A stretch of 64,000 bases of DNA from Marivita sp. (lineage in GTDB: Bacteria > Pseudomonadota > Alphaproteobacteria > Rhodobacterales > Rhodobacteraceae), in contig NZ_JAIPUS010000008.1 of the NCBI RefSeq assembly GCF_020055675.1, forward strand, positions 62,001-126,000. Direction: 5' to 3'. The translations under genes and the position numbers were made by a program. Below are positions 20,504 through 24,282 of this stretch, in pieces (the first letter of the stretch is position 1; each line of letters opens with the position of its first letter). The notes under the pieces are model-generated. The model ran no database searches, was not told the origin of the DNA, and saw nothing but the letters and a program-made list of their open reading frames with translations.

Positions 20504-20590
20504 CGGTGGACCGCGCTTCGAAGCGCGGTTCGACGGGATTTCGAAATCCCGTGCCCAAGGCCCTTCGAAGGGCCTTCGCCCCGGACCACC
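20504..20590 (+). repeat. triple-palindrome (TTCGAA-centred) repeat, copy 1
   Basis: After CGGTGGAC come three perfect 20-bp palindromes: ACCGCGCTTCGAAGCGCGGT (20510-20529), ACGGGATTTCGAAATCCCGT (20533-20552) and AAGGCCCTTCGAAGGGCCTT (20557-20576), with axes 23-24 bp apart. Short outer arms GGTGG (20505-20509) and CCACC (20586-20590) could close them into a cloverleaf. It lies between the CcsR terminator and valS; a second copy follows valS. Confidence 0.85.
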
Positions 20591-20697
20591 CGATTTTCAC
20601 ACATCCCTTGGGTTTTCCTTTCCCCGACCATTCGCTAGATGAAGCGGGACGGAACATTTGCCGCGGTCTGCTGCGGCACAACAGCGGGATTTACCCC

Positions 20698-23600
20698 ATG
20701 GCGATGGAAAAGACATTCGACGCGCAGGCCGCCGAAGCGCGGCTCTACAAGGCGTGGGAAGACAGCGGTGCCTTCAAGGCCGGTGCAAATGCCAAGCGCG
20801 AGGACAGCTTCTGCGTGATGATCCCGCCGCCGAACGTGACCGGCTCGCTGCATATGGGACATGCCTTCAACAACACGCTTCAGGATATCCTTGTGCGCTG
20901 GCACCGGATGCGCGGCTTTGACACGCTGTGGCAGCCGGGCACCGATCACGCGGGCATCGCGACGCAGATGGTGACCGAACGCGAGATGGCCGCCAATGGC
21001 GAACCGGCTCGCGTCGAGATGGGGCGCGACGCGTTCCTGGACCGGGTTTGGGAGCAAAAGGTCAAATCGCGCGGGACCATCATCGGGCAATTGAAGCGCC
21101 TTGGTGCATCCTGCGACTGGTCACGCGAAGCCTTCACCATGGGCGGGGCTGCGGGCGACCCGGACAGGGACAGCGGCGCGCCGAATTTCCACGACGCGGT
21201 GATCAAGGTCTTTGTCGACATGTACGACAAGGGCCTGATCTATCGCGGCAAGCGGCTGGTCAATTGGGACCCGCACTTCGAGACCGCGATCTCGGACCTC
21301 GAAGTCGAAAACACCGAAGTCCCCGGCCACATGTGGCATTTCAAGTACCCGCTCGCGGGCGGTGCGACCTACACCTATGTCGAGAAAGACGCAGAGGGGA
21401 ACATCGTGCTCGAGGAAGAGCGCGACTATATCTCCATCGCCACGACGCGCCCCGAAACCATGCTGGGCGACGGCGCGGTTGCGGTTCACCCGTCAGATGA
21501 GCGTTATGCACCAATCGTCGGGACGCTCTGCGAGATCCCGGTTGGCCCGAAAGAGCATCGCCGCCTGATCCCGATCATCACCGACGCCTACCCCGACCCC
21601 ACTTTCGGATCGGGGGCCGTCAAGATCACCGGCGCGCATGACTTCAACGATTACGGGGTTGCCAAGCGTGCCGGCATTCCGTGTTATCGCCTAATGACCA
21701 CCACGGCGCAGATGCGCGACGACGGGGCGTCCTATGCCGAAGCGGCCGAGATCGCGGGCGCGGTTGCGCGCGGCGAGCGGACCTTGGATGAGACGGAGAC
21801 CGACGCGCTCAACCTCGTCCCGGATCACCTGCGCGGGCTCGACCGGTTCGAGGCGCGCAGCCGCGTGGTCGAAGAGATCACCGCCGAAGGCCTCGCCGTC
21901 ATGGTCCCCGCCACCGATCCGAGATTGGGGTCCCCCACGGCGCCGGACGCCCCTGAAGAGGGCGGCGCCCCCCGCGATGAGGCGTTGGTGCCCCAGGTCG
22001 AGGCCAAGCCGATCATGCAGCCTTTCGGAGACCGGTCCAAGGTGGTGATCGAGCCGATGCTCACCGACCAGTGGTTCGTCGACGCCGAAAAGATCGTCGG
22101 CCCCGCGCTGGACGCCGTGCGCTCGGGTGAGGTCAAAATCGTGCCGGAGTCCGGCGAGCGGACCTATTACCACTGGCTGGAAAACATCGAACCATGGTGC
22201 ATCTCGCGCCAGCTTTGGTGGGGGCACCAGATCCCGGTCTGGTACGGGTTCGACCTTGCGCGCGAAGGCTTCCGCGACGACGAAGGTGATGGCGCCCTTG
22301 ACCTGGTGGAGATGGGCCGCCTGCTCAGCGCGCAGGCCCTGCCCAAGGGCAGCGAACAGCACCACGCGGCGGCCAGCTTTGATGACCTGCAAGGCCGGTT
22401 TGCGGATGTATTGGCGGATCTGCCGACACCGCTGAACCACGCGCGGTTGGTCGAGGTGTCCGATCGCGCGGAGGCATCAGAGCAGTTGGCCGCGAGCCTC
22501 GCCAACTACGAGGCGCATGACCAGGACCCGACCAAGCTGGTCTATCCCGTCTGGCAAGACCCCGACGTGCTCGACACGTGGTTCTCCTCCGGTCTTTGGC
22601 CGATCGGGACGCTGGGTTGGCCGGAAGAGACGCCGGAACTGGCCCGGTATTTCCCGACAAGCGTCCTGGTCACCGGGCAGGACATCCTGTTTTTCTGGGT
22701 CGCCCGGATGATGATGATGCAATTGGCGGTGGTCGACCAAGTGCCCTTCAAGGACGTCTACCTGCACGGGCTCGTGCGCGACGCCAAGGGCAAGAAGATG
22801 TCCAAGTCGTTGGGCAACGTGGTTGACCCGCTTGAAATCATCGACGATTACGGCGCGGATGCGCTGCGCTTTACAAATGCGGCGATGGCCTCGCTGGGCG
22901 GAGTGCTGAAACTCGACCTGCAACGCATCGCGGGCTACCGAAATTTCGGCACCAAGCTGTGGAATGCCACGCGCTTTGCAGAGATGAACGGCGTGTTCGA
23001 GACCCGCACATCCAACGCCGACATGCCCAAGGCCACCACAACGGTGAACACCTGGATCATCGGCGAAACCGCTCGCGTGCGGGCTGACGTGGATGCCGCG
23101 CTGGAGGCCTATCGTTTCGACGACGCGGCGGCGGCGCTCTATCGCTTTGTCTGGGGCAAGGTCTGTGACTGGTACGTCGAATTCTCCAAGCCGCTGCTGC
23201 TCGACGACGGCCCGCAAACCGCAGAAACCAAGGAAACAATGGCCTGGGTCATCGACCAGTGCCTGATCCTGCTGCACCCGATCATGCCCTTCATCACCGA
23301 AGAACTCTGGTCGGTGACCGGGCAACACGACAGCATGCTGGTCCATGCCGATTGGCCCGCCTACGGGACCGATCTGATCGACGCCGAGGCCGATCTCGAA
23401 ATGAACTGGGTGATCGGGCTGATCGAGGGCATCCGCTCGGCGCGTCAGCAGATGCATGTTCCAGTGGGTCTTTACCTGCCGCTGGTGGTCAAGGATATGG
23501 ACGATGCCGCCAGCGCGGCATGGGACCGCAACGAGGTGCTGATCAAACGCTTGGCCCGTATCGATGAGCTGACCCCGGTCGACAGCTTTCCCAAGGGGAG

Positions 23601-23865
23601 CGCCACGGTTCCGGTTGATGGCGCGACCTTCGGTCTGCCGCTGGCTGACATCATAGATGTCGCAGCGGAAAAGGACCGGCTGCACAAGTCGCTCGAGAAG
23701 CTGGAAAAGGAAATCGGCGGGATGACCGGACGGTTGAACAACCCCAAGTTCGTCCAGAGCGCACCAGAAGAGGTTGTGGCCGAGACACGCGCCAATCTTG
23801 CAGCCCGCAAAGATGAGGCGGAAAAGCTGCGCGATGCCTTGAACCGGCTGGCTGAAATTGGGTGA
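20698..23865 (+). CDS. valS: valyl-tRNA synthetase
   Basis: A 1055-residue class I synthetase charging tRNA-Val. [15 protein letters not shown] contains the HIGH-type motif near residue 45, the editing domain includes [15 protein letters not shown] [14 protein letters not shown], and [16 protein letters not shown] is the KMSKS loop. A C-terminal coiled coil ([19 protein letters not shown]) is typical. Length is at the upper end for ValS; acidic insertions around residues 420-450 and 520-610 account for it. The ATG at 20698 is preferred; ATG 20704 is possible. The long upstream open frame runs through the palindromic repeat and is not part of the protein. Confidence 0.96.
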
Positions 23866-24210
23866 TGTGACACGGGGGCAAACAGGCCATACCGCCCCCC
23901 CCAGCCGGGTATGTCCGGGTAAGCAGGATGCCTGCGATCCTGCAGCTTGCTATAGAAGAGGCGTCACCCGAAGGGGCATGACCGTCCTCCTGCTTGCACG
24001 GCGGGGGACATCTCCCGGACCTGTAACCCGGATCGGGCCTTGTGTGACCGCTGTGTGACCGGTCTCTCATGGTTTGCCCCCGGTGCCGGGGCATGATGAG
24101 GCACAAGGTGCTGTCAGTCGCGCTGTCGGAGTGATCCTCTCCCTCCGCTTGAGGCGCATCGTGCCACTCTGTCTGACGGACAGGCATCAAGACGTCGAAA
24201 AGGACCCGGG
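23866..24210. other. valS-trkH intergenic region
   Basis: No gene is visible in this 345-base part between the converging valS and trkH genes. It begins with a likely valS transcription end, the inverted repeat GCAGGAT...ATCCTGC (about 23926-23946), which lacks a T-run. The rest is unstructured GC-rich sequence leading into the second triple-palindrome repeat. Confidence 0.5.
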
Positions 24211-24282
24211 CGGTGGACGGGCTTTCGAAAGCCCGTGCGACGCGGTTTCGAAACCGCGTTTCAAACCCGTTCAAACGGGCTT
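24211..24282 (+). repeat. triple-palindrome (TTCGAA-centred) repeat, copy 2
   Basis: The element again starts CGGTGGAC, followed by perfect palindromes ACGGGCTTTCGAAAGCCCGT (24217-24236) and ACGCGGTTTCGAAACCGCGT (24240-24259) and an imperfect third, AAACCCGTTCAAACGGGCTT (24263-24282), with axes 23 bp apart. Stem sequences differ from copy 1 while the architecture and centres are kept, so the structure seems to be what is conserved. Confidence 0.82.

Follow-up and report, generated by a model that had tools for sequence, protein, structure and literature searches.

Hairpin arrays flanking valS

We analyzed a 64-kb window of a Marivita sp. genome (the whole stretch of 64,000 nucleotides, contig NZ_JAIPUS010000008.1, positions 62,001 to 126,000), in which valS is flanked by two arrays of three short hairpins. 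Copy 1 (20510–20576) lies between valS and a small RNA (sRNA)-like locus with a CCUCCUCCC motif, and copy 2 (24217–24282) occupies the gap where valS and trkH converge. A palindrome search of the window confirmed the arrangement given in a preliminary description of this DNA, i.e., two triple-hairpin copies with 23–24 bp spacing in which five of the six units are perfect TTCGAA palindromes. Center-to-center spacing is 23 and 24 bp in copy 1 and 23 and 23 bp in copy 2. The five perfect 20-bp palindromes with a TTCGAA center are the five longest in the window, the next perfect ones without a spacer being 14 bp, and TTCGAA-N17-TTCGAA occurs twice in the window vs never in 100 shuffles. When the + strand was folded as single-stranded RNA, z-scores were −3.7 for copy 1 and −2.7 for copy 2. 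The features of the locus are as follows.

20510–20529, strandless: copy 1 unit 1, ACCGCGCTTCGAAGCGCGGT, perfect palindrome, decayed in 4/8 orthologous arrays (L154, L156, L162, L166)
20533–20552, strandless: copy 1 unit 2, ACGGGATTTCGAAATCCCGT, perfect palindrome, recognizable in 8/8 aligned orthologues with 96.9% of cells paired
20557–20576, strandless: copy 1 unit 3, AAGGCCCTTCGAAGGGCCTT, perfect palindrome; orthologues show the paired differences C-G / T-A and C-G / A-T
24217–24236, strandless: copy 2 unit 1, ACGGGCTTTCGAAAGCCCGT, perfect palindrome
24240–24259, strandless: copy 2 unit 2, ACGCGGTTTCGAAACCGCGT, perfect palindrome; its left arm, ACGCGGT, occurs 15 times in the set and ranks second among left arms
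24263–24282, strandless: copy 2 unit 3, AAACCCGTTCAAACGGGCTT, imperfect, with 7/8 stem pairs and a TCAA loop
20505–20509, + strand: GGTGG, which may form the 5′ strand of a stem closing copy 1, complementary to 20586–20590
20586–20590, + strand: CCACC, possible 3′ side of the same closing stem, complementary to 20505–20509
20047–20265, + strand: DUF1127 gene upstream of copy 1 (PF06568, E 1.4e-10)
20308–20496, + strand: CcsR/ar14-like CCUCCUCCC sRNA locus with a T-run hairpin at its end (RF02344, E 2.5e-6; RF02791, E 1.7e-6; both below gathering scores)
20698–23865, + strand: valS (PF00133 and PF10458)
24299–25750, − strand: trkH-like gene, convergent with valS (PF02386, E 4.8e-50)

Both copies begin with CGGTGGAC, and this start (GGTGGAC) had been put forward as a mark of the family. 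GGTGGAC followed by TTCGAA at the same distance was found at only two places genome-wide, both of them the window copies, so that the prefix is not a family feature.

Upstream of copy 1, the DUF1127 gene and the CCUCCUCCC-motif hairpins behind it (20047–20496) resemble the CcaF1-CcsR locus of Rhodobacter, with Rfam CcsR1/ar14 matches below gathering scores; the T-run hairpin that ends the sRNA-like locus folds at −22.8 kcal/mol. A promoter and terminator scan of 20300–20720 returned nothing, the loop limit of the scan being such that it misses the T-run hairpin there. Copy 2 is separated from the valS stop by ~345 bp without a called gene (23866–24210), a length exceeding most array gaps, and no Rfam match at gathering score was obtained for this segment.

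A dispersed element of four hairpins

The preliminary description had held that an absence of further copies would make the two arrays a local duplication. In the window’s genome, TTCGAA-N(12–24)-TTCGAA was found at 36 places vs 1 for a reversed-pattern control; some of these are single or coding and have no palindromic arms (L003, L004, L006, L012), and the rest make up 20 arrays. Adding arrays found with a single-unit covariance model, by which 150 of 1434 first-look candidates were scored, brought the genome total to 27 arrays and 83 units, with four units (L142 2048, L144 1979, L148 2079, and L367 1562) and, with the last of these, the L367 array judged doubtful by eye. Named genomes yielded at least 120 stretches in the pattern scan. 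Among the matches listed, 21 had at least two palindromic arms of length 8 or more, and 20 of these 21 were Rhodobacterales by title (Marivita 7, Tropicibacter 3, Roseovarius 2, Rhodobacter 2, Rhodobacteraceae 2, and one each for Tabrizicola, Pseudorhodobacter, Xinfangfangia, and Paracoccaceae), the 21st being a metagenome-assembled genome (MAG) named only to class. One locus named only to phylum (L092) was added to them by hand. Local duplication is ruled out by these copies, genome-wide and in other genomes.

Across the order, a four-unit covariance model (28 candidates scored per genome under strict filters, both strands counted) matched 17/149 genomes of Rhodobacterales, representing 9/72 genera; in a sample of the class, the window’s genome (G000) was the only one of 190 to match. 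All four sampled genomes of the window’s genus were positive, with 13–27 matches each, and outside the genus matches numbered 27 in G017, 18 in G124, 12 in G139, 6 in G125, and 1–4 in nine others. The valS array of the congener G082 is also present in an M. geojedonensis record (L125). BLAST of copy 1 returned two records, one of which is an array between convergent genes on the Ponticoccus alexandrii plasmid p-SCP4; no array was found in the first 200 kb of this 531-kb plasmid. A single viral stretch of 92 (L322) had at least two long palindromic arms. The array and its displayed flanks are identical to a Tropicibacter locus (L095), so that this candidate phage-borne array is probably host flank. 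Overall, the arrays almost certainly belong to a real, structurally constrained, and dispersed element family, and the earlier suggestion of a dispersed unit akin to repetitive extragenic palindromic (REP) elements was borne out.

The anatomy of the element was derived from 82 arrays with 225 units (20 arrays from the window’s genome, 40 from G017, and 22 from named genomes). In each unit, a stem of 8 bp carries a TNNA loop, the tip being mostly TTCGAA: this core is present in 212/225 units, the scan having required TTNNAA. The stem base is mostly conserved (A-T, then A-T or C-G, then G-C), as is the T-A pair at the tip, and the middle four pairs vary; the first stem position is A-T in 197/225 units and the second A-T in 154/225, plus 3 T-A. 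The modal spacing is 23 bp (57/143). Complete arrays have four units, for a full element of ~92 nt, and among four-unit arrays having exactly one ACG-type unit, this unit was interior in 18 of 19 (P 4e-5). Once arrays were oriented by the ACG-type unit, linkers averaged 4.8, 3.3, and 4.4 nt. The full element thus has a fixed polar order and runs H1, 5 nt, H2, 3 nt, an ACG-type H3, 4 nt, and H4, each of the four hairpins having an 8-bp stem. Within the limits set by the controls given below, a weak closing stem, G-rich on one side and C-rich on the other, flanks part of the family. No pair of identical units was seen within any one array in the three sets (P 0.13, 0.08, and 0.15 for the window’s genome, G017, and named genomes, respectively), which is suggestive only of an avoidance of identical units. 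Four loci of the Rhodobacter group (L049, L054, L092, L101) carry three-unit arrays with another stem set, of CGGA, CGGA, and CGAT types in conserved order, possibly a sister type.

We also examined the location of the arrays relative to gene ends, with genes at unannotated loci called by our own dicodon gene caller. By gap type, 31 of the 82 arrays are convergent, 37 codirectional, and 3 divergent, the others being at edges (6) or within called open reading frames (5). Array-free gaps at the same loci comprised 13 convergent, 113 codirectional, and 47 divergent ones, so that arrays are enriched in convergent gaps (P 3e-10) and depleted in divergent ones (P 2e-5); these gap counts were obtained by subtracting arrays, though three gaps (L192, L209, L218) contain two arrays each. 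Arrays cluster just past stop codons: the nearest facing stop is at a median distance of 10.5 nt (n = 68) and within 25 nt in 55/68, and in codirectional gaps the array is closer to the stop than to the next start in 30/37 (P 0.005). Four-unit arrays in codirectional gaps run along the gene direction in 3/8 and opposite to it in 5/8. The usual site of the element is therefore directly behind a stop codon, with both orientations relative to the gene represented.

Hairpins kept while letters change

Structure conservation with compensatory change, as first proposed from the two window copies, was borne out by covariation at two orthologous sites, valS and yebC, and in an alignment across loci. 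The latter includes 18 of the 22 arrays with at least four units (5 from the window’s genome, 5 from G017, and 8 named: Marivita, Tropicibacter, Roseovarius, and Rhodobacteraceae) and is almost gapless; left out were L140 (five units), L150 and L098 (no ACG-type unit), and L048 (ACG-type unit terminal). Of its 576 cells, 575 are Watson-Crick pairs and 1 is G-U, with 94 double-sided changes. None of 500 shuffles reached the observed pairing, number of double changes, or covariation score, and 2/500 reached the number of pair types; sliding the partners by 1–3 columns cut pairing to 23–51%. At valS, where 8 of 19 loci were aligned and the 11 without an array left out, double-sided changes affected 4 pairs, a count reached in 4/500 shuffles (covariation score 0/500, pair types 49/500). 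At yebC, 10 of 17 loci were aligned (leaving out 2 decayed, 2 five-unit, and 3 without an array) and double-sided changes affected 8 pairs, a count reached in 0/500 shuffles (covariation score 0/500, pair types 17/500). The shuffles in all these tests do not preserve relatedness. Loop centers were freer than stems: in the window’s genome, doubtful units included, the center was non-palindromic in 11/83 units vs 9/581 stem pairs (P 4e-6), and in G017 in 3/101 vs 4/707 (P 0.046). With the palindrome interrupted more often at the loop center than at stem pairs, a hairpin fits better than a duplex site. Taken together, covariation and freer loop centers show that hairpin formation, not letter sequence, is kept.

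The near-absence of G-U pairs bears on how this is achieved. T-run hairpins, a loose control as not every such hairpin is a real terminator, contained 14.8% G-U pairs in the window’s genome (115/777) and 54/370 in G017, vs 1/576 in array elements. Of the 94 double changes in the 18-array alignment, 59 are transversion-type, a kind that has no route through G-U, as are 7/13 changed pair types at the three orthologous sites. With G-U this scarce and transversions this frequent, selection on one RNA strand alone explains the pattern poorly; it would be accounted for by a function on both strands or by the copying of arms at the level of DNA. Template switching in palindromes copies one arm onto the other. 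We consider it possible, although on balance unlikely, that the arms evolve by such single steps, the fold being kept while letters drift without G-U intermediates, i.e., that there is concerted evolution within each hairpin of a mobile element without known transposase. With its orthologues, gain and loss of units, and near-pure Watson-Crick pairing, the family offers a natural test between selection through weak intermediates and DNA-level arm copying.

Sites compared within the genus illustrate this gain and loss. Upstream of valS, an array is found in 8/17 genus loci, with unit 1 decayed in four. The yebC site has a recognizable array in 12/17 loci, two of these with five units, 2 decayed arrays, and 3 loci without one; at this site (L227, L229, L231), the last hairpin continues into a T-run in three species, like an ordinary terminator. 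At the L152 site, two units in G140 correspond to four in four congeners and to three plus a remnant in another. In one Roseovarius MAG, two contigs (L052, L127) share one set of four arms, arranged in an identical polar order and joined by different linkers. In G017, a dispersed intergenic repeat of 155–320 bp encloses a two-hairpin array at L191, L205, L207, and L210, with 67–99 bp of the repeat at L216; this repeat may be a larger mobile element. By eye, neither target duplication nor a clean empty site was seen at the compared loci. As to the linked RAYT-like transposase that the preliminary description had envisaged, a PF01797 search of 13 genomes gave no match in G000, G082, and G053, all rich in arrays, one match each in the array-rich G140 and G017, and matches in G020 and G011, which lack an R2 match; the expected linkage thus failed in three of five array-rich genomes.

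Candidate roles and known repeat families

Judging from position and structure, we tentatively favor the view that each window array represents a three-hairpin version of an intergenic element dispersed in some Rhodobacterales and acting as a two-sided hairpin barrier at 3′ ends. Whole elements would spread by copying, by a mechanism we did not find, and would persist where they work as such a barrier: a transcript leaving a gene on either strand would meet a row of stable hairpins, which could block 3′-to-5′ exonucleases and reduce read-through or antisense RNA synthesis. Exonuclease-barrier functions have been proposed for REP elements, as have gyrase-related ones. The near-absence of G-U pairs would then follow from a need for folding on both strands, or from DNA-level copying between the arms. 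For one group of marine bacteria, the family would also contribute a lineage-specific 3′-end element.

Several observations weigh against this view. The array is missing at many sites, e.g., 9/17 genus loci at valS. Copy 1 begins 13 nt beyond a T-run hairpin and upstream of a putative valS promoter picked out by eye, and may thus lie outside any mRNA. Covariation was not significant at the L152 site (5 of 17 loci aligned, one paired change, 105/500), and pairing percentages in the 82-array set are inflated by the entry requirement of at least 7/8 stem pairs per unit. Among imperfect pairs of orthologues at three sites, read on the gene strand with decayed units included, 8 are G-U and 11 A-C (5 vs 4 at yebC alone); that G-U does not exceed A-C argues against selection confined to a single RNA strand. 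The closing stem was matched by flank-swap controls in 98 (window’s genome), 94 (G017), and 224 (named genomes) of 300 swaps, and in 13/300 pooled; against letter-shuffled flanks it was equaled in 1/500 and 0/500 for the first two sets and was not beyond shuffles in named genomes (252/500). A covarying closing stem as a class was rejected, being not beyond the flank-swap controls. Finally, T-runs adjoin just 4/82 arrays on each side, so that the arrays are not ordinary terminators.

A purely selfish element follows closely in our ranking, as a realistic though slightly less favored possibility: miniature mobile DNA without host function, whose hairpins are needed only for single-stranded copying or excision and whose post-stop sites are merely tolerated. 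The patchy amplification in the order, the presence, absence, and unit loss among congeners (e.g., at the L152 site), the decayed units, the recurrence of the same four arms in one MAG, the larger repeat around four G017 arrays, and the rarity of G-U would all suit it. It sits less well with the lack of PF01797 in G000, G082, and G053, of target duplications, and of clean empty sites, and with the tight stop-codon distance; unit 2 at valS, recognizable in all eight orthologues, and yebC arrays paired in 10 species suggest constraint at old sites. Unusual tandem transcription terminators would account for post-stop positions, convergent gaps, and the yebC T-runs, yet we regard them as improbable given the few T-runs overall, the placement of copy 1 behind an existing T-run hairpin, and the few genes of a 3.6-Mb genome that 27 arrays reach. 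Less probable still is that a nucleoid or other protein binds the duplex and recognizes TTCGAA palindromes at a 23–24 bp period; a nucleoid protein site had been entertained in the preliminary description. The near-constant tip (within the TTNNAA required by the scan) and the modal spacing speak for it. Against it, non-palindromic changes are tolerated at the loop center and not in the stem, and stem letters vary as long as they pair. Chance or local duplication is virtually out of the question for the longest palindromes of the window, unmatched in 100 shuffles and recurring genome-wide and across genomes.

The statement that the repeat matches no named one was upheld at the level of Rfam: no family covered the window arrays at gathering score, and with the cutoff relaxed to E 5 the sole overlap was a weak SCARNA23 match (E 1) at copy 2. 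A literature search gave no description of this element among the top-ranked papers (the best 1–20 of up to 187) of a library with few subscription journals, and the main texts of RepRanger (PMC12306157) and Cozzuto et al. (PMC2267715) name neither TTCGAA nor Rhodobacter. According to its main text, which leaves Rhodobacterales and five of its genera unnamed, one study describes the CGTC-1 REP as having an 8-bp stem, a 4-nt loop, a mostly A-T stem base, and an alphaproteobacterial bias, and as being intergenic between codirectional and convergent genes, mainly dimeric, and without a dedicated transposase; criteria for the CGTC superfamily are given there as an 8–9 bp stem and 4–5 nt loop with A-T almost invariable at the first two stem positions, and frequent G-T pairs in REPs are cited (PMC3733652). 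Array units resemble the CGTC-1 REP so described in their 8-bp stem, 4-nt loop, alphaproteobacterial bias, intergenic location between codirectional and convergent genes, and want of a dedicated transposase, and, more loosely, in a mostly A-T stem base. They differ in their flanks, where CGTC, TGTC, and CCTC are found in 0, 4, and 0 of 488 (column-shuffle expectations 2.0, 5.8, and 1.0) and CCA tails in only 14/488, in their polar four-unit order rather than mainly dimers, and in their near-lack of G-U.

As in GTAG REP, REPIN, and RAYT systems, short palindromes are dispersed and clustered at gene ends, but the GTAG tag occurs in 1/488 flanks (2.5 expected) and the window’s own genome is without PF01797. 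Caulobacter CIR, described as alphaproteobacterial intergenic repeats of ~110 bp (PMC2229807), share lineage and location with the arrays; GANTC is nearly absent here (1/82 arrays), so that the arrays are not CIR. Sponge RHE (PMC2800124) and Volvox palindromes (PMC2670323) are organellar hairpin intergenic repeats considered as spreading elements, multi-hairpin in some sponges and with sponge RHE loops varying more than stems; the arrays, unlike these, are bacterial, change their stem letters in pairs, and keep a fixed polar order. Overall, none of the named repeat families tested fits the element, which is set apart from CIR and from CGTC and GTAG REPs by its tags and sites, and, since letters differ between copies while the fold stays, repeat finders that compare letters can miss elements of this kind.

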